Source: a virus
Virus record (IMG/VR): IMGVR_UViG_3300048557_000333
Span: 1-25,193 of that record
Reading direction: 5' to 3' (one strand)
Length of the DNA: 25,193 nucleotides
Part shown: positions 1 to 25,193 of the stretch, piece by piece
Layout: each line of letters begins with the position of its first letter
Position numbering within the stretch: the stretch's first letter is position 1
Position numbers and translations under genes: made by a program
The notes under the pieces: model-generated
Seen by the model: the letters and a program-made list of their open reading frames with translations, nothing else
Databases searched by the model: none
Told to the model about the DNA's origin: nothing

Positions 1-3000
1 GTGAAACTCTAAACACTATATTACCCTCATTAGTTAATCCTGTAGGATTTATTACATTTAAATTAACATTACCAGAAAGAGTTATATCTCCAGGTGAAAC
101 AAACTTATATGCAGAACTGATAGGTGTAGCGGTTATTATCCATGTAATAACATCATTTTGTTTTGCTATTATAGTATTTTCACCTGTTATACTACCATTT
201 GTTGCTGTACCTATTATTTGTAGAGATGTAGATATAATTGTTGCTGTTTGTGGTATTGTACCTATAGTACTTATATCTGTTTCTACAAAAGTTAATGTCC
301 ATCCACTTGATCCTTCATAGCCTATAGTATTAAACTGTTTTATAGTTGAAGGTGCATCATTAAATATTGGATCAACGTATGAAGGTTGAGTACCTAAGCC
401 ATAAAAATTATTCCTAAATCCAGGCGTGTGATCATTATGTTTCCATAAATTACCTTGATAAAAAGTATAATATGTATTATTTAAACTCAAACCTGATTCT
501 TGATTAAAAGATCTAAAGCTACTCCAGCCACCTGATGATTCATCATACGTAAGAGTTAAATATCCATTCGCAGCTGTAGCTACATTTGTGTCTTTATTAC
601 CATCATATCCTTGCCCTACAAGTGTCAATGTATATAATCCAGAGTATTCATCGTAACTACCAACAATACTTGTAGATGCTTTTAATGCGTCTCTAAAAAA
701 ATCAGACATACCCACGTTAGATATATCAGTTATACCGTTTTGAGATAATCTTAATACAGATCCATTATTTTTATCTGTAAAATATTTTTGAAAACCAAAC
801 TCAGCATAAGATAAAGGATCTTTAGCTATACCAAAAACACCTGCATATGGAGCTACTGTACCTAAAAATTGTGTGTTACTAGTTACAGGAACTTGTCCAC
901 CTTCTGCTGAATATATAAAATCTTTATCTATTGGTGATCTTGATACCTTATCTTCTTGAAATATTAACAATTGAGTATCATCAGCGGCTAACTTTTGTAT
1001 AGAACCATCTTGTGGATCTACAGAGATAGTTAAACCACCTTCAGACTCATTAAATTGATTTATATAATTAACACCTGTTCTAGAGTTAAAAAGTCCACTA
1101 GAGTGTATTAAAGTGTTAAATCTAAGTTCTTCAGCAAAATTATCTTGAACAACAAAAGCTCTAACACCTACGTCAAAAAATGTTTCATTAAAACCAGCTC
1201 TTAATCTGTTTAACTCTACATGAGAACCAGATGATGATGATGGCGGTTGAAAATCTAATAAATAACAATTAAAAAAATCCACATCTATTGCTACGCCTGT
1301 TATAGCACTTACTAAACCACCTGTTGATGTCTCATAAAATATATCTAAATCAGATTCTACAGGTTGTGTTTCAAAAACACATATACCTGATGTAACTGCC
1401 GTTCCACTGTTATTTATAGTTGTAACAGCCGCTGTACCAGTTGGATTAGCTATTGATTGAACTGATTGAAGAGCTCCAGTTGTAGCATTAAACACATTTG
1501 CACCTCCCACGTATTTAGGATAAACAGAAACATCACATGGTGATATTGTTGCTGATGTACTCGGCGGTATAACAGCTGTTTGATCTCTTGGTATTTTATT
1601 TAAACTATCACCTAATCTTTCCACCGTGTTAGCAGCACTAACAGCTGATATCCAATTATAATACTCTTGTTCTCGTTGTTTAACAACTATTCTATATGAG
1701 TAAGCCCAACTAGGTATTTCATTTGCAGGATCTGCAAAAGTAATTCTTAAAGCGTTAAATGCTGTGTCTGAGCTTGCTGAACCTGTGTTAGGATCCACAT
1801 AAACAGTATCACCTCCTGAATTAGAAAGTATTACTGGAGATTGTCTACCAAATTTATCAGCAAGAACTATACCAACTTGATATGTTCTTCTTGATTTTAA
1901 AGAAAGCATTTCAAGTTGATCATGTCTAGCTGAAGATTCTCCAGTTCTTGTTACGCTAAAATTTATATTAGGTATATTATAATTTTGTAAAAAATTACCA
2001 TAAACCAATCTACCGCCTACTAATTCTTGAGATTGAGCTATTCTAGGAACTGCATCATACACTCTAGTTAATTGATCAGCTGGTAAAGTTCTAAATGGAT
2101 CTTGAGAAGCATAGAAAAAGTTTATAGATGTTTCACCCGCAACAGGTTTATCTTCAACCACATACAAAGCACTTGATCCTGTTTCTTTATATATTAATTC
2201 TACTTGAGTAATACCATATCCAGCTGGAGTAGGTATTTGAAGTTGAACTGACTTAATCGCATTAACAAAAGTTTCTATTTCACCTAACTCATTTATATCA
2301 GCGGGGATAGGATCTAAATTAGTAAGTCTTGAAAAAACTGTTGCTGTGAATGGAGCTAATGTACTATATTCTCCATCTTCAAATTGCCATCTATAAGAAA
2401 ATCTTACTAATTTATCTTCTAAAAAGTTAGATGTTATAGCATTACCTTGTTCGTCTGTAGTTCCAACATCTAATATTGTTGGTGATTCATAAGGCGTAAA
2501 CTTAGCCACTGAAGCTAAATTATCAAAATCCACAGCTGTATAATAACTAGGATCATTAACAGCTCTAACTATATTTATTTTTCTAGGTGGATTACGATTA
2601 TCAGTCCAAAATAAAAGATCATCAACTAAATTAATACCTGATATTTTAAAATCTTTATGAAAATTTAAAGATGCACCTGTAACTAAAGTTCTTACTTGTT
2701 TAGAGGATTGATTATAAGAAAATATACCATGTGTACCTCCATTGCTTCCATCGTAAGAATCATTAGATGTTACATAGAAAAATATACGATCACTACCATT
2801 ATCTCTATAAGAACCAATACAAGATCCACCAGATATTCCTGATGCTGCAACTTGAACATTACCTAGTAAATTTTCTACAGCACCCATATCAGAACTTTCT
2901 GATTTTCCAACGTTAACGTTTAATGCTTCTCTATATTCACCAGCTGGAACAAGTCTATCATCTAAATCTCGATTCATTCGGCCACCACTGAATAACTTTT

Positions 3001-3013
3001 TAATTTCTGGCAT
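1..3013 (-). CDS. Nozzle/muzzle-like tail protein (partial, C-terminus outside window)
   Basis: An open frame of 1004 codons starts at ATG 3013 and runs past the left edge without a stop; I read it through at both ends and at several internal points. The N-terminus (MPEIKKLFSGGRMNRDLDDR, then LVPAGEYREALNV) has the pattern seen in P22 gp10 / T7 gp12-type nozzle proteins. Two further blocks, LLFWTDNRNPPRKIN near residues 131-145 and RFSYRWQFEDGEYS near 203-220, are ones I recall from a protein common in marine phages. A later stretch near nt 400-560 reads SGGWSSFRSF and FYQGNLWKHND, like propeller blades. The last readable part (nt 1-260) is threonine/isoleucine-rich, like a beta-sandwich domain. 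It lies 9 bases after the ring protein, where a tail nozzle would be expected. The nozzle role is inferred from pattern and position; a generic tail stabilisation protein is the alternative. Confidence 0.7.
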   Translation of the reverse strand, partial: MPEIKKLFSGGRMNRDLDDRLVPAGEYREALNVNVGKSESSDMGAVENLLGNVQVAASGISGGSCIGSYRDNGSDRIFFYVTSNDSYDGSNGGTHGIFSYNQSSKQVRTLVTGASLNFHKDFKISGINLVDDLLFWTDNRNPPRKINIVRAVNDPSYYTAVDFDNLASVAKFTPYESPTILDVGTTDEQGNAITSNFLEDKLVRFSYRWQFEDGEYSTLAPFTATVFSRLTNLDPIPADINELGEIETFVNAIKSVQLQIPTPAGYGITQVELIYKETGSSALYVVEDKPVAGETSINFFYASQDPFRTLPADQLTRVYDAVPRIAQSQELVGGRLVYGNFLQNYNIPNINFSVTRTGESSARHDQLEMLSLKSRRTYQVGIVLADKFGRQSPVILSNSGGDTVYVDPNTGSASSDTAFNALRITFADPANEIPSWAYSYRIVVKQREQEYYNWISAVSAANTVERLGDSLNKIPRDQTAVIPPSTSATISPCDVSVYPKYVGGANVFNATTGALQSVQSIANPTGTAAVTTINNSGTAVTSGICVFETQPVESDLDIFYETSTGGLVSAITGVAIDVDFFNCYLLDFQPPSSSSGSHVELNRLRAGFNETFFDVGVRAFVVQDNFAEELRFNTLIHSSGLFNSRTGVNYINQFNESEGGLTISVDPQDGSIQKLAADDTQLLIFQEDKVSRSPIDKDFIYSAEGGQVPVTSNTQFLGTVAPYAGVFGIAKDPLSYAEFGFQKYFTDKNNGSVLRLSQNGITDISNVGMSDFFRDALKASTSIVGSYDEYSGLYTLTLVGQGYDGNKDTNVATAANGYLTLTYDESSGGWSSFRSFNQESGLSLNNTYYTFYQGNLWKHNDHTPGFRNNFYGLGTQPSYVDPIFNDAPSTIKQFNTIGYEGSSGWTLTFVETDISTIGTIPQTATIISTSLQIIGTATNGSITGENTIIAKQNDVITWIITATPISSAYKFVSPGDITLSGNVNLNVINPTGLTNEGNIVFRVS

Positions 3014-10883: not shown

Positions 10884-13115
10884 TTATTGTATTATCTTAC
10901 TCATTGATCCGTCGTTTTTATATTTTGCAAAACGAAAATCTATTTTTTTTGTTGTTCTTTCCATATTAGGCCTATACATATGTTTTCTACACGCCATAAT
11001 TGCAAGTCCACTACTTATGGATGCATCATGAGATGTTCTTCTTGATATATCAAAACGCGCCCAGTCTTCTAATGTTTTTTGAAAATACATATTACCATGA
11101 TTTTCTTCTTTACGTCCTACATAGTCTTCTATGTAAGATTCAATAGCAGCTGCGTGTGCTTGTTTTATATCTTCAGATGTATTTGGTATACCTCCTAATT
11201 CTATTTCTGTTTTAGATAAATTACCTAAAAGTTTATCAGGTCTATTCATAGAAAAACCTCTATAACCTCTTCTTTTTAAATGATATAATAATCTTGGTTT
11301 ATTATTTTCAGCAAGTATTGGCATACCGTAAAACACTAATGCCATTAATACTTCTTCAAAAAATATTTCTGCTGTTTGTGGTCGTGCTATGTATTCTAAG
11401 AAAAACTTAGTATTAGGCACATCATTTACCATAGAAAAAGTAGTTAATCCATGAAGAGCACCATTAGACCCACCACCCCCAACAGTACCGCTGATGTCAT
11501 AACTATCACACCCGAAGGCTCCGAACCCATCATTACCAGGATATTTAATACCATTTTTTATGATTATATTATTTTGTATGTTATCTGGCGGTATCCATGA
11601 TATTTTAAATCTACCATTTTTACTAGGAACCCATATAACTTTAGTATCTTTTATACCATTTTGCCAAGCAAAAGTTCCACGAACAACATAACCTTTAATA
11701 GCCATTTCTTCGTTAAAATCTATTTGCTCATATATTTTAGTTAAATTAAATAATGAATTAACTGTTTCATCTCTAAAAGCATGCTTTTCAGATCTTGGAA
11801 ATTGTCTGTAATATTCATTTAAAGCATCACTATCTTTTTTTAATCCTTCTACTTCATTTTCCCAATGATCAATGACTCCCGTAAATATTTTTTCCCCATC
11901 AATTCCTTCAATCGGGTCTGATGGTGTATCGAAGACAGGATATCCGTATTTGTCAATAAACCCTTCGTATCCCCACTCCATAGGTATGAACAAAGAATAT
12001 AGTCCACTTGTAGTCTGGCCATTGCGGTTTCTATTTGTAACATCTGAATTATAAAATAATTTTTTAAAGTTATCTCCACCTTTATTTAAAGCATTAGATG
12101 TAGATCCCATCATACATTTACCTACTACTTTGGCACCGAGCCTGAGGCACGTTTTCGTGACTCTCCAGTTGTTGAGTATATTGTCCGGCCTCTCCCATTT
12201 ACCGGATTCATCATGGACGAGGAGTTGTAATTTCTCTCCATCATACGAGTTGTCTCCCGTGTTCTTCCAATCGATTGTTGTATCGAGCCCCTTCCCAAAT
12301 TCCTCCTGACTATAGGTCTCTTTGATGGCGTTTCTGGTAAGTCTTCTTGACGGTATCTTATAGGATAACTCCGTCTTTGGTCGTTCCATCCCATCCTGTA
12401 TTGGTTTGAAAAAAAATGGATAGTTGATTGATATGGGTACAATCTTGTCTGTAAACATCTTCTTCGCATCTGCTCCAGTTTTAGATAAGACCCCAAATCT
12501 AGAGTCCTTGGAAGTTGTTGCCAAGTTAACAGTCTCTGAGGATGCCATGAAGCTAAAGCCAGACCGTCTGTTCTTAAGGTAGCACATTCCATAAGATCTC
12601 TTATCTGCCTTGCAAGCCTCCCAGAAGTAGTAAAATATCCTGTTTGCCTGCCTAAAATCTGGTGCTCCCACGTCGATCTTTGTCCAGGATAAATAGACAT
12701 AGTGCGATCCTGTAATGTAGTTCGGGGCACCGTTGCACATGAACCAATACCCATCATTACGATAATTAAACTCACTATCAATATATTGGTAGTATTTTTC
12801 TTTAATATCCTCTGGGTAAGATTGAAAATCATATATGCTTTTTATTTTATTTAAAGATTCTGGTTTATTTTTTATTCTAAAATATTGATCTGTTTGTTTT
12901 AAGTCTTCTCCATCTATTTTGTTGGGAGTTTTAGGTATTGCTACCTTAAGACCTTGTATTTCATATATATCACCTATTGTACCATCTTTACTTATTACAA
13001 CACAGTCTAATTCTTCATTATATCCATATTCAAACTTCTTATGTTTATTAAGATGTTTAATTTTTTTATCAGATAAATGAGCATTGTGTATTTTATAAAG
13101 CGTTTGTTTGTACAT
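10884..13115 (-). CDS. terL: Terminase large subunit (ATPase and nuclease)
   Basis: A 743-aa DNA-packaging motor. The ATPase half contains YITGSHYVYLSWTKIDVGAP and FYYFWEACKADKRSYG, then a Walker A position reading NRRSGFSFM (residues 182-190) without the usual GKS/GKT. Walker B is LLVHDE (298-303, catalytic Glu 303), and a coupling motif GSTSN lies at 337-341. The RNase H-like nuclease half shows D537 or D540 in FGCDSYD, E603 in LAENN and D697 in SHDAS, which fits the acidic triad. The RRSG Walker A and surrounding sequence resemble terminases of crAss-like phages. The start overlaps the previous stop as TAATG. Base composition is patchy: nt 12118-12770 (residues about 117-333) and two shorter patches are much richer in G+C than the rest, yet the protein frame is intact. 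Confidence 0.92.
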   Translation of the reverse strand: MYKQTLYKIHNAHLSDKKIKHLNKHKKFEYGYNEELDCVVISKDGTIGDIYEIQGLKVAIPKTPNKIDGEDLKQTDQYFRIKNKPESLNKIKSIYDFQSYPEDIKEKYYQYIDSEFNYRNDGYWFMCNGAPNYITGSHYVYLSWTKIDVGAPDFRQANRIFYYFWEACKADKRSYGMCYLKNRRSGFSFMASSETVNLATTSKDSRFGVLSKTGADAKKMFTDKIVPISINYPFFFKPIQDGMERPKTELSYKIPSRRLTRNAIKETYSQEEFGKGLDTTIDWKNTGDNSYDGEKLQLLVHDESGKWERPDNILNNWRVTKTCLRLGAKVVGKCMMGSTSNALNKGGDNFKKLFYNSDVTNRNRNGQTTSGLYSLFIPMEWGYEGFIDKYGYPVFDTPSDPIEGIDGEKIFTGVIDHWENEVEGLKKDSDALNEYYRQFPRSEKHAFRDETVNSLFNLTKIYEQIDFNEEMAIKGYVVRGTFAWQNGIKDTKVIWVPSKNGRFKISWIPPDNIQNNIIIKNGIKYPGNDGFGAFGCDSYDISGTVGGGGSNGALHGLTTFSMVNDVPNTKFFLEYIARPQTAEIFFEEVLMALVFYGMPILAENNKPRLLYHLKRRGYRGFSMNRPDKLLGNLSKTEIELGGIPNTSEDIKQAHAAAIESYIEDYVGRKEENHGNMYFQKTLEDWARFDISRRTSHDASISSGLAIMACRKHMYRPNMERTTKKIDFRFAKYKNDGSMSKIIQ
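12118..12770. other. GC-rich island inside the terminase gene
   Basis: My hand count gives about 44% G+C over 12121-12780, against 27% in the 60 bases to the left, 25% in the 60 bases to the right, and 15% in the 60 after that. Codons here end in C or G far more often than in the rest of the gene. The island covers the ATPase core from just after DSEFNYR to about KVVGKCMM. The edges are abrupt. Smaller islands occur at about 11870-12030 and 11465-11535, the last over the first nuclease aspartate. It may be an imported segment or a chimeric assembly. Confidence 0.75.
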
Positions 13116-15075: not shown

Positions 15076-18000
15076 TTATGCTATTGCTAAATATATATAA
15101 CTATAAGATGAACCACCATCTAAATCATTACCACCACCGCTTACATTAAATCCTGTTGAAGTAAATTGAAAATCTGTTCCCGTATTACCTTCTGCATTAT
15201 TTAAATTTGCATATAATTGTTCATCAGCTCCTCTTGCGGAATCATGTATAACCCAATTTCTTGTTTGATTATAACTTTTAATCATTACAAACCTTGGTTG
15301 AAATCCAACATATACAGAGGTTGTACTTGGATAAGTTGAAGTATAAGAACCTATTTTGCTATAACCTGGGATTGATTTAAAACAATAAGCAATCCATTCA
15401 ACAGTTCCACCTGTCCAACGATTAGTAAAAGTTGTAGATGTTACAGATGAAAAACTATCTGCTCTTCCCGATACCGCATCAGTACCTCCATTTCTTGAAA
15501 AACTTAAATAAGCTTGCTCACCAGTAATTGAAGTGTAAATTTGCCAATCTTCTGCTGCATCAACACCTTTTAATATAATCATATCTGGTTTACCATTTAG
15601 CCCATGCCCTACATTGGTTGTGCCATTAGATGTACAACTAACTACTGAAAACCCTGCATCCTGGTTTACCGCAATGGTACCTACATCTGTACCATCAGTG
15701 TTTTGAGTTAAATAACCTGGCTGACCAAATGTTACATTACTAGATGCACCACTGTAATTACCACTTAAATCTACTGCATCTGTTTGTAATGGATAAGCTG
15801 CAATACAACCTGCACCTGCAGGATAGTTTAATGTATTATTACTTTCCACTGGTTCTGCGTAAAGAGTAGCAACACTCGCTGTACCTGTTGTAGGAAGTGT
15901 TGTATTAAAAAATCTTACTTGGTCTAAACTTCCATCTAAAACATCGCCTCCTGAATCCCATTCTCCAAACTTACCTGCAAATGTAGAGTTACTGTTACTA
16001 CCAGAGAGTCCTGTTGTTTTTGTTACTGTTTTTGATACGCCATTTATATACATTGAAGTAGAAGAATCATTTCCTGTAATTACCATATTGTACCAAGTGT
16101 CAGCTACAACCTCTGATGAAAAATCTGCTTCTTGTAATGTTCTGTTTCCTGATGAACCATTTGTTTGATGGTATTGAATTTTTAATTTTTTGGTTGTAGC
16201 AAATATTATATTTGCATATCCTCTTAAATATTGAGTATTAGTTTCCGTATAAATTGTATGGTCATTATTAAAATCATTAAATTTTACCCAAAATGAAATA
16301 GTATGTCCACCTGTATTCCAATCACCAACAATATAATTACTTAAAACTATTTTACTAGTAGTTCCATTAAAGCTAGTTGATAAATTAGCTAAAGGTGCTT
16401 TCCAGTTCCATGAAACCATATCTATCCCAGCCGGATTCATATAAACAGCACTGGTTGCCCCTAAAGTAAACCCGTTTGGATCAAAACTTGTAAAATCTGT
16501 ATATCCTGTAACAGCAGCAGCTGTTGTATCAGCCTCTAATACGCTACTAATCCCTCTTACAGTATCTACTAAAACATGATTTTTGTTATCATCCCTAGTT
16601 TTTACCCATACTAATCCAGGCTTAAAACCTACTGTATTTATTATGTTTGTAGTATTATTACCTGTATATATAACAGGATTAAATTGATCTAAAGCATTTA
16701 TAGCTACTGGCTCACATTCAACTTCTTTGTAAAGTGTAGTTACATCTGATGCGGATAGTGCTGAGTCGTATATACGTATTTGATCAATATCTCCCTCAAA
16801 CCAAGCACCACTAGAGGGTATACCATCACCGTGACCTATTAAACAATTATTAGCGTAGTAACTAATTGTTCCTGACCAACTACTGCTTGTGGTTGCAACT
16901 CCATCAATATACAAAGTAACTGAAGTATTATTTACAATTACTCCCACAATGTGATGCCAGTTTCCATCTGTAACAACTGTATTAGGCGTAACTTGTGCAG
17001 CAACAAGATCACTATTATTAACAGCTCTCCAATTTAATTTGCCACTTGGTTGTAATAATTCTAAAAAATATTCATATTCTACAGTAGCATCATTACCTTT
17101 GGAAAAAACATAACCAGTACCTGAGGTTGTTGTTTTTATCCATAAACTAAAACTTATTTCACCTGTTTTTGTTACAGAAAAATCTTGTGAAGTACCTAAA
17201 ATTATTCTGCTGCTGCTACCATTAAACGCTCCAGCAAATCCAAACTTACCTTCAGTATTGAAGTTAACATTAGTAGCAGTACCATTGTAATTACCTAACT
17301 GATCTGTAGCATCTGACATTTTGTAGTATGCAATGCTATTAGGATTAGCAAGTTGATAATCTACACTAGCGCTTGTAGCTGTTGTAGTTGTTTCGTTATA
17401 TAAAGCTGTGATAGCTGCTTGTGATAAATCTGAATTAAATATTCTTACTTGGTCAATTTTACCAGGAAAATATTGACTGTCTGCTAAGCCAATTTTTGTA
17501 TCAATATATGTTGCAACACTTGCTTGGTTAGCTCCATATGCAGTATATGAACATTCTATTCCATTTACAAATACTTTAGCTCTTTGATTACTTATACTTC
17601 TATCTGATATTACTACTATATGATACCACGTGTTACTTACAAATGATGATGGAAGTGTTGCATCAACATAATCAAGAAGATTTATACCCGCTTGACCACC
17701 ACTAAAAATCTGTATCTTAGTTGCATCGGGTTTCATTATACTAATTTCACCAACTCTAAATGCACTAGTGTTATTTGCAAAAAATCCTGTATATGCACTA
17801 GCATTATTAAAATTAACCCACATAGAAATACTATATACATTTGCTGGATTTATAGTGCTTGATGAAATTCCAATGTTAGAACTGCTACCATTAAATACAG
17901 CTGCATTACCAAACTTCCCAGTTGCATAAGTTATATTATTTGCTGTACCAGGATATGTATTGCTTGGTATAGAAGTTGTAGCGTTGTTTAACTGATATGT

Positions 18001-18096
18001 AGCTGTAGATGTAACTGATTGATCAGTTGTAAATAACTGGTCTGTGTCCGTTGTACACGCAATTCCAAAAGCTGATAACAGACTTTGTCCAAACAT
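15076..18096 (-). CDS. Large tail fibre/adhesin with three LamG-like domains
   Basis: A 1006-aa protein. LamG/concanavalin-like domains, each with FNGSSS near the start and DQVRIF or DQIRIY near the end, lie at about 33-237, 250-458 and 572-748. A shorter piece resembling only the start of a fourth lies at 757-800 (CIAAYPLQTDAVDLSGNYSG). Residues about 470-567 (VIYTGN...VSWNWKAP) match the first part of the repeated unit in the 893-aa neighbour, and 811-1006 (GFSVVSC, VGHGLNGKP, then GFQPRFVMIK and a YIYLAIA end) match the rest. LamG domains often bind carbohydrate, so a surface-glycan receptor-binding role is likely. It is the last gene of the fibre cluster, 10 bases before the holin. The trimeric fibre architecture is inferred. 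Confidence 0.75.
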   Translation of the reverse strand: MFGQSLLSAFGIACTTDTDQLFTTDQSVTSTATYQLNNATTSIPSNTYPGTANNITYATGKFGNAAVFNGSSSNIGISSSTINPANVYSISMWVNFNNASAYTGFFANNTSAFRVGEISIMKPDATKIQIFSGGQAGINLLDYVDATLPSSFVSNTWYHIVVISDRSISNQRAKVFVNGIECSYTAYGANQASVATYIDTKIGLADSQYFPGKIDQVRIFNSDLSQAAITALYNETTTTATSASVDYQLANPNSIAYYKMSDATDQLGNYNGTATNVNFNTEGKFGFAGAFNGSSSRIILGTSQDFSVTKTGEISFSLWIKTTTSGTGYVFSKGNDATVEYEYFLELLQPSGKLNWRAVNNSDLVAAQVTPNTVVTDGNWHHIVGVIVNNTSVTLYIDGVATTSSSWSGTISYYANNCLIGHGDGIPSSGAWFEGDIDQIRIYDSALSASDVTTLYKEVECEPVAINALDQFNPVIYTGNNTTNIINTVGFKPGLVWVKTRDDNKNHVLVDTVRGISSVLEADTTAAAVTGYTDFTSFDPNGFTLGATSAVYMNPAGIDMVSWNWKAPLANLSTSFNGTTSKIVLSNYIVGDWNTGGHTISFWVKFNDFNNDHTIYTETNTQYLRGYANIIFATTKKLKIQYHQTNGSSGNRTLQEADFSSEVVADTWYNMVITGNDSSTSMYINGVSKTVTKTTGLSGSNSNSTFAGKFGEWDSGGDVLDGSLDQVRFFNTTLPTTGTASVATLYAEPVESNNTLNYPAGAGCIAAYPLQTDAVDLSGNYSGASSNVTFGQPGYLTQNTDGTDVGTIAVNQDAGFSVVSCTSNGTTNVGHGLNGKPDMIILKGVDAAEDWQIYTSITGEQAYLSFSRNGGTDAVSGRADSFSSVTSTTFTNRWTGGTVEWIAYCFKSIPGYSKIGSYTSTYPSTTSVYVGFQPRFVMIKSYNQTRNWVIHDSARGADEQLYANLNNAEGNTGTDFQFTSTGFNVSGGGNDLDGGSSYSYIYLAIA
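15697..15828 (-). repeat. Truncated LamG remnant within the 1006-aa fibre gene
   Basis: Residues about 757-800 read CIAAYPLQTDAVDLSGNYSG then ASSNVTFGQPGYL. This lines up with the opening of the second LamG domain (SIAYYKMSDATDQLGNYNG then TATNVNF), but the expected FNGSSS strand and the rest of the sandwich are missing. It sits exactly between the third LamG domain and the resumed shared unit. Confidence 0.55.
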
Positions 18097-18549: not shown

Positions 18550-21231
18550 TTAATTTTCTTTTATTGCTAAGTATATATAAGTATAATTTCCATTTACATC
18601 ACTATTAGAAGTTAAAATTGTAAATCCTGTTGCTGTAAACTGCACGTCAACAGCACTATCTTCAGCCCAACTTCCATTCGCATATAAACGGTTTTTACCA
18701 TTTGTACCTGTAGTTCTTTTATCATCTAATATAGCCCATTGACCCTGGTGACTAATTGATTTAACAAGTAAATAACTAGGTTGAAATCCTGTTGTAACAA
18801 CTTTTCCACTTGCGTTTGATCCGGCATAAGAGCCCACTTTGCTATAACCCGATATTGATGTAAAACAGTAACCTATAAAAGATTGTCCATTGTCAGAAAC
18901 ATTACCACCGCTACCTACACTAAAAACAGTTGAAGTAGGAGCAGTACTGTTCCATTCGTCGTTAGTAGTGCTTTGACTATCACTACTATTTAATACTAAT
19001 CTATATGCTGCACTAGTAAGCCCGGAAGAATAAACAGGCCAATCAGATCCTGCTGTATATTTTTTGACTATAATTAATTCAGGCGCAGCATTAAGCCCAT
19101 GACCAATTGTAGCAGTATTATTATCACCTGTCCATTGAACAATACTAAATCCGGCTGCGGCATTTGCACTAACCACACTAGTTCTTGTTCCTGCTGTATT
19201 TATAGAACCTAATTCTCCAGCTTTCCAATTCCACGATACAAAGTTATAACCACCTGCACCAAAATCATGAGCAGAACTACCGTTATAACTACCGCCATTT
19301 AAAGTCCACCCATTATTATTCCAAGTTAAAGTTCCCCATGAATCTGTAGCAGCATCTGTATTATTTGAATATACATTTTTAACACCGCCGTTAACGCCAT
19401 AAGGCATTAAAGAGCTAAAAAGACCATTTGACCATGTATTATTTCTTACTTTTAACCAAGAAAAATCTGCTTCAAATCCTATGCCATTAACATTTAATGG
19501 AGTACTAGATGATCCATTATAAAGTGTTGTATTAAAACTATTAGCTAAACTAGGTGTTGTTGTATTAGGGTCTGCTGCAAAAGCTAGGTAGATGTAAGTT
19601 CCTGAGACATCATTTACAGCACTATTACCGTTTGTTAATTGAAAACCATTTGATAAAAAATTTATGTTTACAGTTTCTGTAGTTTCAACATTTGCAAGGT
19701 TAGCATTTAATACTTGTTTTCTTTGGTTTACAGGACTTCTTTTATTGTCTACTATAATCCAATTGTTAGTAGAGCCTGCTGTAGTATTTTTTATTAGTAA
19801 AAAAGCAGGTTCAAAACCTGTTTGAATATTGTTTGTTATATTATTTCCAGTGTATGAGCCTACTTTGCTAAAACCTGGTTTTGATGTGAAACAATATGCT
19901 ATTGTATCTCCTCCATAATATGATGGATAAGAACTCCAACTCGATCCTAAAGTAAATACAGTTGAAGTTGGTGATGTGCTATTCCATCTACCTGTATCAT
20001 CACTAAATGCTCCACTTGTATTTAAAGTTCCTTCTTTTGTGTTTCCTACATCTTCCGAATAAACAAACCAATTGCTTGCAGTTAAACCTGTTTCATATAC
20101 TTTTACAAACATTAATTCTGGTGCAGCATCTAATCCGTGACCTACAGTGGTTGCACTACCACTTAACCCTGTTCCATCATACTTTACAATACTAAATCCT
20201 AAAGTATTATTAACACTAACTTGACTATTAATGTCTCCATCAGTATTTGCCACAGCTGCTCCGCCGGCTTTAAAGTTCCATGATACAAATGTTGAAGATG
20301 ACTTATTTACATTATTATCTGAACCTAAACTAAATCCGCCATTGGGGGAAGTATTAAATGATGTTAGCTTTGTTGTTGATGTAGCTTGTGCACTTGTTTC
20401 GTTTGAGTATAATGATTTATCTGAACCTCTAACTGAATCAAATAAGTTGTGCCACTCTGTGCCACTTCTTTCTTTTATCCATGTAAAATCTGGCTTAAAT
20501 CCAGTGGTTATAGATTGAGTTCCACCATTACCAGTATATAAAACAGTGTTTAAATGATTGCTAGGAGCATCGTTTTGAACTGTTATACTAAAAGATCTTG
20601 ATGAACTAGTTTGATTTTCATCATCTGTAGCTGTAATGCTAAATGTTGTTGTTGTATCTGATGACACTGTAGGCGCTGTACCTGTTATAGCTCCTGTAGC
20701 TGTTGCTAAAGATAAACCTGTTGGTAAAGTACCTGTGGTTACCGCATACTCTATAGTATCACTGCCTTCTGTAGCTGTTACTTGAAAAGAAGCAGAAGCT
20801 CCCTCTGTTACAGAACCTAAACTACCTGAAGCTGTTGACCACACGGGTATGCCGCTATATTGTATAAAATTTGCTTGTGAAGCAGTACCTCCATCTGGAT
20901 TTGTTACAGCTACAGTATATTGACCAGCTGCTTTAGCTGGAGTTGTAATTGTAATTTGATTAGCAGAATTAAAAGCTGTAACTGCTGATGTACCACCCAC
21001 AGTACAAGTAATACCTGAAGCAAATAATGTACCATTAATAATAACACTTTCACCTCCTGCGGGATCTGCTGCTGTTTGAGTTCCTGGATAATCAATAGAT
21101 GTTATTGTAGGATCTTGTATAGGAGCAGCCCAAGACATACCACCTGCGCCATCAGTCTTTAAAAACTGACCATCTGTACCATTATCTGATACGCCATAAA
21201 ATTGTGCTGCCTTAGGTTTAGTTTGAGCCAT
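18550..21231 (-). CDS. Multidomain tail fibre/adhesin with IPT/TIG, cadherin-like and duplicated units
   Basis: An 893-aa protein. The N-terminus (MAQTKPKAAQFYGVSDNGTD, then GQFLKTDGAGGMSWAAP) is of a type common at the base of marine phage fibres. Residues about 40-127 look like an IPT/TIG domain (TITSIDYPG, SVIINGTLF, ends VTNPDGG...NFIQYSG). Residues 128-220 look like a cadherin-like putative Ig domain (TGTLPTGLSLATATGAITGT). Then comes a unit of about 330 residues present twice, at 225-554 and 564-893, each with a TxLYxG start, GF-P-F-WIK/WLK, a VSWNxKA block, a VGHGL or IGHGL-NAAPEL block, YCFTS-x-x-G-SKVGSY and a YIYLA end. The gene starts directly after the stop of the 123-aa gene with no gap. 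Likely receptor binding; no catalytic residues are recognised. Confidence 0.72.
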   Translation of the reverse strand: MAQTKPKAAQFYGVSDNGTDGQFLKTDGAGGMSWAAPIQDPTITSIDYPGTQTAADPAGGESVIINGTLFASGITCTVGGTSAVTAFNSANQITITTPAKAAGQYTVAVTNPDGGTASQANFIQYSGIPVWSTASGSLGSVTEGASASFQVTATEGSDTIEYAVTTGTLPTGLSLATATGAITGTAPTVSSDTTTTFSITATDDENQTSSSRSFSITVQNDAPSNHLNTVLYTGNGGTQSITTGFKPDFTWIKERSGTEWHNLFDSVRGSDKSLYSNETSAQATSTTKLTSFNTSPNGGFSLGSDNNVNKSSSTFVSWNFKAGGAAVANTDGDINSQVSVNNTLGFSIVKYDGTGLSGSATTVGHGLDAAPELMFVKVYETGLTASNWFVYSEDVGNTKEGTLNTSGAFSDDTGRWNSTSPTSTVFTLGSSWSSYPSYYGGDTIAYCFTSKPGFSKVGSYTGNNITNNIQTGFEPAFLLIKNTTAGSTNNWIIVDNKRSPVNQRKQVLNANLANVETTETVNINFLSNGFQLTNGNSAVNDVSGTYIYLAFAADPNTTTPSLANSFNTTLYNGSSSTPLNVNGIGFEADFSWLKVRNNTWSNGLFSSLMPYGVNGGVKNVYSNNTDAATDSWGTLTWNNNGWTLNGGSYNGSSAHDFGAGGYNFVSWNWKAGELGSINTAGTRTSVVSANAAAGFSIVQWTGDNNTATIGHGLNAAPELIIVKKYTAGSDWPVYSSGLTSAAYRLVLNSSDSQSTTNDEWNSTAPTSTVFSVGSGGNVSDNGQSFIGYCFTSISGYSKVGSYAGSNASGKVVTTGFQPSYLLVKSISHQGQWAILDDKRTTGTNGKNRLYANGSWAEDSAVDVQFTATGFTILTSNSDVNGNYTYIYLAIKEN
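18553..20559 (-). repeat. Tandem duplication of a 330-aa unit in the 893-aa fibre gene
   Basis: Copy 1 covers about 19570-20559 and copy 2 about 18553-19542. Both have the same order of blocks (TxLYxG, GF-x-x-F-WxK, VSWNxKA, GHGLNAAPEL or GHGLDAAPEL, STxPTSTVFxxGS, YCFTS, SKVGSY, NGNYTYIYLA or SGTYIYLA). The copies have diverged clearly in sequence, so the duplication is old. A third, interrupted copy lies in the 1006-aa gene. Confidence 0.75.
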
Positions 21232-21607: not shown

Positions 21608-22837
21608 TTAGTTAAATTGTATATTTCCTGTTCCAGCGTTTGTAAAGGTTGTTATTTTATCTGAACCTGATGTAATAGTTGTCCCAGATAATCCACTTAT
21701 AGTGAATGCGTTTGAGTAACGTAATATAACTACTCCAGAACCTCCAGTAGCACCTCCTCTAATATTATCAGCTCCACTTCCACCGCCCCCACCGGCGCCT
21801 CCGCCAGTATTAGCTACACCATTATTTGATGATGCAATAGGCCCAGTATTTATACCTGTTCCTCCACCACCTTGACCACCAGCACCAACTTGAATAGCAG
21901 AATATGAACCACCACCACCACCACCGGCGTAGAATGTAGCTGTACCTATTATAGAGTTTGATAATCCATCACCTCCGTCAAAGCCTCCTCCGCTTGTTGC
22001 AGAAGTTCCAACGGCGCCAGCACCACCACCACCACCAGCACTATCACCTTGACCAGAAGCGGAAGTACCACCGCTATATCCTTGTGTTGGAGATACCGCC
22101 GCACCACCAGCTATAGCAGAAGAGCCACCTCTTGATCCTCCACCACCAGAACCACCATCTCTACCAAGTTGTATATCCGGAGTTTGACCACTTATACCTG
22201 TACCTCCACCACCACCACCTGTAGAGGTAATAGTAGCAAAAACAGAATTACTTCCATCCCCACCTTGAGAATAAGGAGCTGGGGTAGCCACAGTTCCTCC
22301 AGCACCTACTGTAAGAGTATAATTTGTTGCTGTTAATAACGATAATGCAGTTTCAGCTGAACCTCCACCTCCTGTAGTACTGCCATATGAAGTTCTATAT
22401 CCTCCGGCACCTCCACCTCCACCTTCATTACTTCCACCGGAACCGCCCCCAGCCACTACTAAGTAATTAATTGTTAAAGGAGTGGTTTCTATTGCTATAT
22501 TATCAGCAGTCCAACCTTTTGTTACATCTTGATAAACTAAATTTATAGTAGAATTATTAGTACTATTTTTATAATCATCTGTGGAGCCTTGAATTTTTTC
22601 TGATCCATTAGCCGAAAAAATAACTTTATTAGTAGCAAATGTCCCTGCATAGTCTTGTATAATAACTTCGTTGCCTGCAGTTCCTGCTGGTAAACTAATT
22701 GTTATTTCAGCTGATGTAGTATTAACAAAATAACCTTTCCCAGCTACTGCTGTAAAATTACTTGTCTGGATAGTTGATACCCATTCAGTACCAAAAGTTC
22801 CGTCTATTAAGTTCTTTGTTAATTTTGTTAATGCCAT
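21608..22837 (-). CDS. Glycine-rich tail fibre/adhesin, paralogue of the preceding gene
   Basis: A 409-aa protein. Residues 1-20 (MALTKLTKNLIDGTFGTEW) are a short attachment segment. Residues about 19-125 form a beta-rich domain (STIQTSNFTAVAGKGYFVNT, LPAGTAGNEVIIQDYAGTF, SEKIQGSTDDYK, KGWTADN) that closely matches the same part of the gene upstream. From about 130 to 380 the chain is a glycine-rich domain (LVVAGGGSGG, GGGGGAGGYRTSYG and many similar runs), of the Gly_rich_2 kind. It ends with VILRYSN and a small strand-rich tip. Glycine-rich fibre tips, as in phage S16 gp38, fold as polyglycine sandwiches and recognise receptors, so this is a likely receptor-binding protein. The start overlaps the previous stop as TAATG. 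Confidence 0.72.
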   Translation of the reverse strand: MALTKLTKNLIDGTFGTEWVSTIQTSNFTAVAGKGYFVNTTSAEITISLPAGTAGNEVIIQDYAGTFATNKVIFSANGSEKIQGSTDDYKNSTNNSTINLVYQDVTKGWTADNIAIETTPLTINYLVVAGGGSGGSNEGGGGGAGGYRTSYGSTTGGGGSAETALSLLTATNYTLTVGAGGTVATPAPYSQGGDGSNSVFATITSTGGGGGGTGISGQTPDIQLGRDGGSGGGGSRGGSSAIAGGAAVSPTQGYSGGTSASGQGDSAGGGGGAGAVGTSATSGGGFDGGDGLSNSIIGTATFYAGGGGGGSYSAIQVGAGGQGGGGTGINTGPIASSNNGVANTGGGAGGGGGSGADNIRGGATGGSGVVILRYSNAFTISGLSGTTITSGSDKITTFTNAGTGNIQFN

Positions 22838-25193
22838 TAGCTAAATGTTATATTACCTGTTCCTCCTGTAAATACTGATACTTTTTCTGTTCCTTCTGTA
22901 AAAGGTGAACCAGTTGCTTCAACAATACCACCTGGAACATTAGCAGTATATAAACTTGGATACCTTAATATAACTACTCCAGACCCACCATTTTCTGCTG
23001 GGAAAGCTTTATTACTTAAAGATCCCGCACCTCCACCTGTGTTTATAGCCGCTACTCCATATCCTTGAGCTGTATAATAACTACCACCATTACCACCGCC
23101 TCCTAAAGATGTATTTACATTTCCACTACCTCCTAAACTACCTGAAGCTCCTCCTGAAGCATAATAAACATCACTTCCAGAAACTTCACCAACAGAAGCA
23201 GTTGCAGCATTAGTAGCGTTTAATATATTTACTACTAAACCTAAACCACCTGGAGCGGTACCAGAAGATGCGGCTCCACCAGCACCACCTCCTGATGTAC
23301 TATAATCATTTCCAGCTGCAGGTAAAGGACCTCCGCCAAAACCTTGAACTACAGGTGTTGAAACAGCACTACCAGGATTTAAAGTTGCAACAGCAGAATG
23401 ACCACCACCACCACCACCAGAACCACCATCTGATCCGGGAGCTGGATTTTGACTTGCATTTTGACTGTTTATAGCACCTTTACCACCCCCAGTAGATGTT
23501 ATATTTGAAAATATAGAATTATTACCATTAGCAGCTCCACCCGCTCCTACGGTAATTGAATAACTTGTTCCAATAACAACCTCTGGAGCTGACTCCATAC
23601 TACCTCCACTAATTGTTATAGGAGATATAGTTCCATAGCTTGTTCTTAAACCACCAGCACCACCTCCACCATTTGCTGAACCATTGTTACCACCACCAGG
23701 ACTACTTCCCCCAGCTGCAACAACTAAAAAATGTAATAAAGGTGGAACGTTTGTAATTATATTATCAGCAGTCCATCCTTGAGTAGCATCTTGATATAAT
23801 AAATATACCGTAGCATCTTTAGTTACACATTTGTAATCATCAGTATCACCTTGTATTTTTTCTGACCCATTTGAACTTATAATTAGTTTATTAGTATTAA
23901 ATGTGCCAGCATAGTCTTGTATTCCAATTATATTACCTGGAACACCTGCTGGTAAATTTATTGTAATTTGTCCAGAAGTTGTATTAACTATATAACCTTT
24001 ACCTGGATTAGCTGAAAAAGTAGCTGTTTGTATTGTTGTATCCCAATCAATACCAGGAGCTAAAGTGTTAGCTATAGTAAAATTATTAGGTGAATTAGTT
24101 GTTACATTAATTCCAGTACCACCTGTTAAAGTTGCAGGAGCTAATGTACCACCTGAATTTAAAAATCCTACAGATCTTATTTCTATTATAACACCACTAG
24201 GTGGTGCTGTAGCAAAAGTAACTGTATTAGCAGATAATGTAAGAGTACTTACGTTTTGATATAAACCATTTAAATATACTTCAATAGCATTTAAATCTAC
24301 TGGTGTTATACCAAGAGCATAATCAGTTGTTGATCCATCCCCTGTAAAAGTATCTGTATATAAAGCATTAGTCGATGCTGATATAGCACCTAATACCATT
24401 ACCTCTATATTATAACCGCTTTGAGGTGCTGTTGCAAAAGTTAGCGTTGATCCAGATATCCCATATGTACTTTTATCTTGGTATATACCTTCTAAAAACA
24501 CAAAGGTCATATTCTCTTCGTTAACAGTTGTATTTAAAGTAAATGCTGTTTGAGAACCTGTACCTGTAAAGTTATTCTTATTAAATCCACTTAAAGCTAA
24601 AGCTTTTACATGAACTATTTCTATATTAGCACCGTTTGGTGGCGCTGTTGTAAATGATACTACATTACCTGTAGTTTGATATGTTAACTTAGACTGATAA
24701 ACACCACTTACAAATACTGATGTAGCATTTTCATTTATAATAGAAAGTGTTGTAGAAAAATCAGTTTGTGTTCCGTCACCAACAAATTCATCCACCTCAA
24801 CAACACCATCTACTGCAACATAATGCATTATTTCAATAGCAGTTCCTGTTGGAGGTGCTGTTCCGAATGTTACTGTAACTCCTGTTGCTGTGAAAGTATC
24901 TTTATCTTGATAAACACCATCTAAGTATATTTGTATATCATTTTCTGATACTACTGTAGACGAAACACCATATGCAACTGTTGAACCATCACCCGTATAA
25001 TTATTTCTTTCTATTGTTACAGTTCCACCACCGCCTCCTGTAGAAGCAATTGTTAGTGTGTCTGTTGCGGCATCTGTAGTTAGACTGATGTTATTACCAG
25101 CGGCTACGGTTAATGTATCTGTAGGACCATCAGCTACAATGCTTGATTGTCCTGATACTGCAAATGTTTTAAATGCTTCAGTAACTGTACCAC
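22837..25193 (-). CDS. Long tail fibre with repeated modules and glycine-rich tip (partial, N-terminus outside window)
   Basis: The frame is open from the right edge to TAA 22837-22839 (784 complete codons). The ATG at 24828 is internal: the upstream codons continue the same repeat, giving TFAVSGQSSIVADGPTDTLT and NNISLTTDAATDTLT, a fibre shaft pattern, then GGGGTVTIERNNYTGDGS. Four modules of about 71-74 residues follow, each with a Y/F-x-G-DG-S/T start, an L-x-G-x-YQ block and an ATAPPSG-x-x-IEI end. Next comes the domain shared with the 409-aa paralogue (TIQTATF, GKGYIVNT, IQDYAGTF, EKIQGDTDDYK, GWTADN), then a glycine-rich domain with GGGGGAGG-like runs, and the end VILRYPS. It is probably a main receptor-binding fibre. 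Its full length is unknown. Confidence 0.75.
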   Translation of the reverse strand, partial: GTVTEAFKTFAVSGQSSIVADGPTDTLTVAAGNNISLTTDAATDTLTIASTGGGGGTVTIERNNYTGDGSTVAYGVSSTVVSENDIQIYLDGVYQDKDTFTATGVTVTFGTAPPTGTAIEIMHYVAVDGVVEVDEFVGDGTQTDFSTTLSIINENATSVFVSGVYQSKLTYQTTGNVVSFTTAPPNGANIEIVHVKALALSGFNKNNFTGTGSQTAFTLNTTVNEENMTFVFLEGIYQDKSTYGISGSTLTFATAPQSGYNIEVMVLGAISASTNALYTDTFTGDGSTTDYALGITPVDLNAIEVYLNGLYQNVSTLTLSANTVTFATAPPSGVIIEIRSVGFLNSGGTLAPATLTGGTGINVTTNSPNNFTIANTLAPGIDWDTTIQTATFSANPGKGYIVNTTSGQITINLPAGVPGNIIGIQDYAGTFNTNKLIISSNGSEKIQGDTDDYKCVTKDATVYLLYQDATQGWTADNIITNVPPLLHFLVVAAGGSSPGGGNNGSANGGGGAGGLRTSYGTISPITISGGSMESAPEVVIGTSYSITVGAGGAANGNNSIFSNITSTGGGKGAINSQNASQNPAPGSDGGSGGGGGGHSAVATLNPGSAVSTPVVQGFGGGPLPAAGNDYSTSGGGAGGAASSGTAPGGLGLVVNILNATNAATASVGEVSGSDVYYASGGASGSLGGSGNVNTSLGGGGNGGSYYTAQGYGVAAINTGGGAGSLSNKAFPAENGGSGVVILRYPSLYTANVPGGIVEATGSPFTEGTEKVSVFTGGTGNITFS
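23401..23418. repeat. ACC trinucleotide run coding six glycines
   Basis: Six ACC units on the plus strand (GGT on the coding strand) encode consecutive glycines in the tip of the long fibre. A matching six-unit run lies at 21908-21925 in the paralogue. Such runs can change length by slippage in whole codons. Confidence 0.7.
24148..25005 (-). repeat. Four tandem fibre modules of 71-74 residues
   Basis: The modules begin at about 25005 (NNYTGDG), 24792 (DEFVGDG), 24576 (NNFTGTG) and 24354 (DTFTGDG). Each contains an LDGVYQ, VSGVYQ, LEGIYQ or LNGLYQ block and an APPTG, APPNG, APQSG or APPSG turn followed by IEI or IEV. The spacing is regular but the sequences have diverged, so this is protein-level repetition and not recent DNA duplication. 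Confidence 0.85.

Follow-up and report, generated by a model that had tools for sequence, protein, structure and literature searches.

Reshuffling of phage receptor-binding proteins is established (PMC10684548; PMC6630733 for Gp38; PMC3909814 for marine host-recognition genes). In the Gp38 adhesins of T-even-type phages, glycine-rich conserved motifs stand between hypervariable segments, which are reshuffled modularly to give chimeric adhesins (PMC6630733, PMC6851490). Recent domain mosaicism (≥90% identity) has been described in general for phage tail fibres (PMC10684548), and the host-recognition genes of marine phages under-recruit as metaviromic islands, within genes too (PMC3909814). Laminin domains are mentioned in neither PMC10684548 nor PMC3909814, and our literature search found no paper on DUF7483 or on LamG fibres of pelagiphages. 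The locus described here lies in a 25,193-base virus record (the window, meaning the whole stretch of DNA analysed) and adds to these precedents a DUF7483 triple repeat, a joint that can be interrupted, an out-of-phase LamG period and a joint-by-joint map of breakpoints.

Two neighbouring adhesin-like genes and their shared unit

Read in the direction of transcription, the minus strand has first a gene with a T7-type tail-fibre N-terminus (22837–24828), then a Gly-rich gene and genes of 123, 893 and 147 aa; the 1006-aa gene comes next, and behind it lie the genes for a holin, an M15 endolysin, the terminase large subunit and the portal. This synteny with the tail-fibre, holin, endolysin and terminase genes, together with lectin-type folds, points to a putative adhesin or receptor-binding role for the 893-aa and 1006-aa genes (Table 1). 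The first gene (2–3013) matches the crAss muzzle C-terminal domain (E 8e-7), and the nearest host-named relatives of the terminase (10884–13115) are records of Flavobacterium, Cellulophaga, Tenacibaculum and Maribacter phages (best 44%), with 62% to an unassigned Manatee Spring record; the muzzle match and the terminase relatives suggest a crAss-like podovirus of marine Bacteroidota. The adhesin modules, by contrast, look like those of pelagiphages, cyanophages and roseophages.

Table 1. Positions in the window of the two genes and their modules.
Feature	Position	Strand	Evidence and remarks
1006-aa putative adhesin gene, LamG1-LamG2-A-[LamG3 insert]-B-C	15076..18096	-	ORF, Pfam, domain HMMs
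LamG1 (aa 32-241)	17374..18003	-	domain HMM
LamG2 (aa 256-464)	16705..17331	-	domain HMM
DUF7483 repeat A (aa 467-567), VSWNWKA at end (16396)	16396..16698	-	Pfam, motif, domain HMM
Inserted block (aa 568-798)	15703..16395	-	replaces the 6-residue linker that joins WNWKA to NTDG (GGTAVS in L010)
LamG3 core (aa 576-733, FNG to DQVRFFN)	15898..16371	-	95.4% DNA identity to pre-A LamG core of L011
LamG N-terminal segment behind LamG3, fused to NTDG start of B	15703..15813	-	LamG N-terminal profile; conserved in relatives
DUF7483 repeat B (aa 799-909)	15370..15702	-	domain HMM; core 90% DNA identity to L015 B
DUF7483 repeat C (aa 910-1006)	15079..15369	-	domain HMM
893-aa gene: TIG and putative Ig (He_PIG) domains followed by a pair of DUF7483 units without insert	18550..21231	-	ORF, Pfam
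893-aa gene, DUF7483 unit 1, A-B-C without insert; VSWNFKA at 20266-20286	19558..20565	-	Pfam, motif, AlphaFold2
893-aa gene, DUF7483 unit 2, A-B-C without insert; VSWNWKA at 19219-19239	18553..19548	-	Pfam, motif

The unit shared by the two genes is Pfam DUF7483 (PF24299, 330 profile positions), which scores 570 bits in the 893-aa protein and 203 bits in the 1006-aa protein (curated cut-off, 27 bits). The sequence-only reading had described two intact copies in the 893-aa gene and a split one in the 1006-aa gene, and its coordinates and motifs proved correct when the positions of VSWNWKA, NTDG and GHGL were rechecked. The 893-aa protein has two DUF7483 stretches, the best of which covers profile positions 2–330 without a break. 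The 1006-aa protein also has two, the best aligning profile positions 109–327 at aa 797–1006 and the other being the A part; continuity is broken by 231 aa that intervene after repeat A, and the second block restarts at about 15702 (aa 799, NTDG), with GHGL at 15609.

That reading had taken the split pieces for two halves. A shared unit is indeed split, but not in half: profiles built for the sequence on either side of the split match each other, and hhalign of the family alignments related A to B (E 1e-14), A to C (1e-17) and B to C (3e-12), with one repeat (A) ahead of the split and two (B-C) behind it. Compared in the same way with LamG, A, B and C were unrelated to it. On these alignments DUF7483, which Pfam treats as one domain, is three homologous beta-rich repeats. 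Because AlphaFold2, given a 63-sequence alignment, modelled an intact unit from the 893-aa gene with a pLDDT of 93.9 and a pTM of 0.93, A-B-C is predicted to form one compact object. The order of A, B and C is fixed in nearly all of 174 loci, and this order and the compact model rule out the possibility that the blocks are independent domains occurring in arbitrary order.

Against solved structures DUF7483 had no confident match. The best PDB entry, APC-beta of Plasmodium perforin-like protein 1, gave an E of 9e-5 but a TM-score of ~0.25, a weak hint that we did not accept as the fold; PCSK9 stood lower in the same list of structure matches, and a sequence search of the PDB matched no chain. 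BFVD held many relatives of the unit, one carrying the name DUF7483. In three loci (L087:1936-5319, L068:7007-8323 and L069:1231-2814), A-B-C is 100–190 aa longer than usual with no LamG match, and these longer spans are perhaps other insertions within the unit.

LamG sequence at the A/B joint

The 1006-aa gene has its unit split behind VSWNWKA by ~231 aa of LamG sequence; Pfam Laminin_G_3 (PF13385) matches three stretches of the protein (177 bits against a cut-off of 27.6), and a LamG domain (aa ~571–761) and a 37-aa segment stand between A and B-C. Module transitions over the 174 loci were A-B 114, A-LamG 14, LamG-B 15, B-C 135 and B-LamG 0. Relative to the unit, LamG was found at A/B, before A or after C, and at B/C in none of the 174 loci.

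The earlier proposal that LamG was inserted in frame at a module boundary is borne out by interrupted and uninterrupted alleles of one orthologous locus, which we defined by the conserved N-terminus MFGQSLLS and to which the syntenic fragment L014 was added. Interrupted alleles are those of the window, L006, L007, L008 and L009, and also of L012 (broken frames); uninterrupted versions, sought among relatives at the same locus, were found in L010, the L182–L185 group, L192 and L014. The joint lies directly behind WNWKA, aa 568–798 standing where L010 has a six-residue linker. Spacing from WNWKA to AGFS is exactly 21 residues in four uninterrupted alleles and 235–247 in five interrupted ones, so the split is not due to chance. 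Every interrupted allele was found in a virus contig assembled from a metagenome. Since none of the 16 genomes from GenBank phage records has LamG between A and B, the uninterrupted form is taken as the common state; gain and loss were not polarised with the B-C tree because B and C have themselves been exchanged.

At the same locus, L013 (1-1890) and L198 (42-2267) carry two LamGs followed by a different C-terminus, with no DUF7483 after the LamGs; the replacement in L013 is SPRY-like by eye. This C-terminus probably represents a further exchange, with its joint after LamG2. In L012/L188/L215 (IMGVR 3300046167_000610), reading frames are broken in both adhesin genes, through either sequencing error or real decay.

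The insert had been read as a full LamG domain plus a LamG fragment. Both sequences are present, but they form one period cut at FNG rather than a whole domain with a stray fragment. LamG1 and LamG2 start with strands such as SIAYYKM..GNYNGTATNVNF..KFG, followed by FNGSSS. The insert starts at FNG right after A (VSWNWKA-PLANLSTS-FNG) and ends in GCIAAYPL..GNYSGASSNVTFGQPG, the N-terminal LamG part that is missing in front. A profile of genuine LamG N-termini matches this trailing segment at an E of 2.9e-7 in the window and of 1e-11 to 9e-6 in relatives (shuffled sequences, at least 0.3); because of this match, the insert is, as judged from profiles, a single period, FNG to FNG, from a LamG array and not a whole domain, with the N-terminal segment behind the Laminin_G_3 core and not ahead of it. 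The permuted phase is common to all NNTLNYPAG-type inserts. Five other loci (L030, L036, L203, L204 and L209) have LamG in ordinary phase at the A/B joint, there of a second DUF7483 unit, apparently through independent insertion at the same joint; the two phases suggest that LamG at A/B had more than one origin.

Circular permutation is known for concanavalin A. In the AlphaFold2 model of aa 460–1006, A and B-C are confident and LamG3 is moderate, and the modelled insert comes out as similar to LamG, pentraxin and sialidase-CBM folds. Around the trailing LamG N-terminal segment (aa 762–798), pLDDT is low (35–42 over aa 749–796), and for this reason we did not accept circular permutation as demonstrated by structure. 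Another out-of-phase junction is seen in L011 (2001-4817), L015 (2449-4788) and L019 (6864-9401), where the N-terminal strand of repeat A already contains the start of a LamG core (YTGNGSTQxITG followed by xxFNGSSS) and the LamG N-terminal segment stands ahead of the remaining A. The junction motif Y(N/T)G..T seems to be common to the LamG and repeat A families.

Exchange of cores and the ends of shared tracts

Across 5.9 kb of core genes running from lysis to portal, L009 matches the window at 99.5% identity, and yet the LamG1, LamG2, LamG3 and B cores of the two cannot be aligned in DNA, between edges that are 88–98% identical. LamG, A and B cores recur at 90–100% DNA identity across slots, genes and phages: LamG1 of L007 equals LamG2 of L009 (100% over 487 bp; flanks 47–48%), LamG3 of the window matches the pre-A LamG of L011 (95%; flanks 33–35%), its B matches that of L015 (90%; flanks 48%), and repeat A of its 1006-aa gene matches that of the 893-type gene of L012 (95%, over exactly repeat A; flanks 35%). 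The tree of LamG cores mixes slots, with 14 slot changes needed, and its strongly supported branches force at least four changes for the permuted A/B class; the insert state is likewise scattered across the B-C tree. Edges also move, because synonymous differences at the right edge of the insert and in the terminase disagree in opposite ways, being 0.18–0.28 against 0.43–0.65 for L006, L007, L021 and L023 and 0.20 against 0.02 for L009. Judged by these tracts, shuffling is ongoing and finer than a single insertion.

The sequence-only reading had attributed the insert to module shuffling between adjacent genes. Shuffling stands, with DNA tracts jumping slots and genes, and the repeat A shared with L012 confirms exchange between genes of the two adjacent types. 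The LamG itself was not borrowed from the 893-aa neighbour, in which Pfam finds none; the closest relative of LamG3 is in another phage, L011.

Tract ends cluster at the joint motifs FNGSSS, DQVRI, WNWKA, AGFSIV and YCF. Among distinct LamG ends, 70 of 72 lie at profile positions 24–46 (FNGSSS) or 166–196 (DQVRI..LY) and none of the 72 at 45–161; all 30 ends in repeat A lie at 2–36 or 95–106 (WNWKA = 103), and 15 of the 17 in repeat B at 1–24 or 100–123. Because the zones were picked after a first look at the data and the pairs overlap and are not independent, binomial figures for this clustering are not to be read literally. Complete GenBank phage genomes have tracts of 80–95% DNA identity at A/B and B/C, with unalignable cores between them. 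Tract ends at conserved edges could, taken alone, be explained by purifying selection; it is only the core-transfer tracts that demand recombination instead.

A modular locus and its alternatives

We consider it highly probable that this is a modular tail adhesin locus, a putative receptor binder, in which the cores lying between conserved joints are exchanged. Short conserved module ends would act as homology arms (FNGSSS and DQVRI in LamG, the start of A, WNWKA at A/B, AGFSIV, and YCF-GYSK at B/C), recombination between co-infecting phages would replace, without loss of frame, the variable core that two joints enclose, and selection would favour in-frame, foldable products. The A/B joint can also take a whole additional LamG slot, which in the lineage of the window is one LamG period cut at FNG, leaving the N-terminal strands behind the core. 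Homologous recombination during co-infection, by a phage or a host recombinase, is the most likely agent, and the cores may bind glycans of the host surface. It seems doubtful that the joints are, beyond this, an evolved recombination framework for lectin-like cores across slots, genes and distant marine phages, with the A/B LamG folding as a circularly permuted lectin.

The same edges would be expected if A-LamG-B and A-B were ancient variants, separately inherited without recombination, with edges under purifying selection and cores drifted and positively selected. Edges are conserved at the protein level between phages whose terminases differ by 16–38%, and the phase shared by the NNTLNYPAG-type inserts also fits. 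However, cores of 90–100% DNA identity occur in different slots, genes or phages between flanks of 33–48%, insert classes are broken up on both the core tree and the B-C tree, and the near-twin L009 has different cores; we find such a history very improbable, and for the DNA-identical cores it is contradicted unless the contigs are chimeric. Chimeras would arise if short-read assemblers had fused strains at the conserved edges into false mosaics. The data are mostly metagenome contigs, L012 has frameshifts, and edges of ~200 bp and ~90% identity are located at the tract ends, but the boundaries are sharp, with too little shared sequence on the flank side for an assembler to bridge. Reading frames are also intact in most mosaics, the same edge of the insertion is found in 11 contigs, and the conserved-joint pattern is present in the complete genomes of GenBank phage records as well, so that misassembly appears less probable still.

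Site-like breakpoints in a hypervariable locus would also be produced by a dedicated diversification system that moves cassettes, such as a diversity-generating retroelement, an invertible tail-fibre segment or a site-specific recombinase. Pfam scans of the 18 ORFs of the 25-kb window, a partial record for which a distant enzyme is possible, found no reverse transcriptase or recombinase. An invertible cassette was rejected, as inverted repeats were weak (80–89%, 18–21 nt) and none flanked the cassette, and the changes are replacements of entire cores rather than scattered substitutions. We regard this as the least probable of the three.

With core exchange between conserved joints as the preferred reading, the locus offers a nucleotide-resolution case of how marine phages may rebuild their adhesins, mapping the joints that tolerate insertion, those never seen to do so, and the sites of core swaps. 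Whether the conserved edges work as arms for homologous recombination and whether a core swap brings a new receptor become directly testable, and core swapping at fixed joints fits a fast change in what the phage sticks to.

The DUF7483 proteins of pelagiphages, cyanophages and roseophages have the same repeat unit, whose full profile the 893-aa protein spans. In GenBank phage records the unit is uninterrupted and often near tail-fibre genes, whereas in the window LamG divides one of the units at A/B. Of the three stretches that match Laminin_G_3 or ConA-like lectin domains, the inserted copy differs in having no N-terminal strands in front. The likeness to Gp38, in which conserved motifs likewise separate exchanged variable segments, is one of pattern, with no sequence relation seen, and the scale is different: the pieces exchanged here are whole domain cores of ~85–160 aa, whereas those of Gp38 are short loops.
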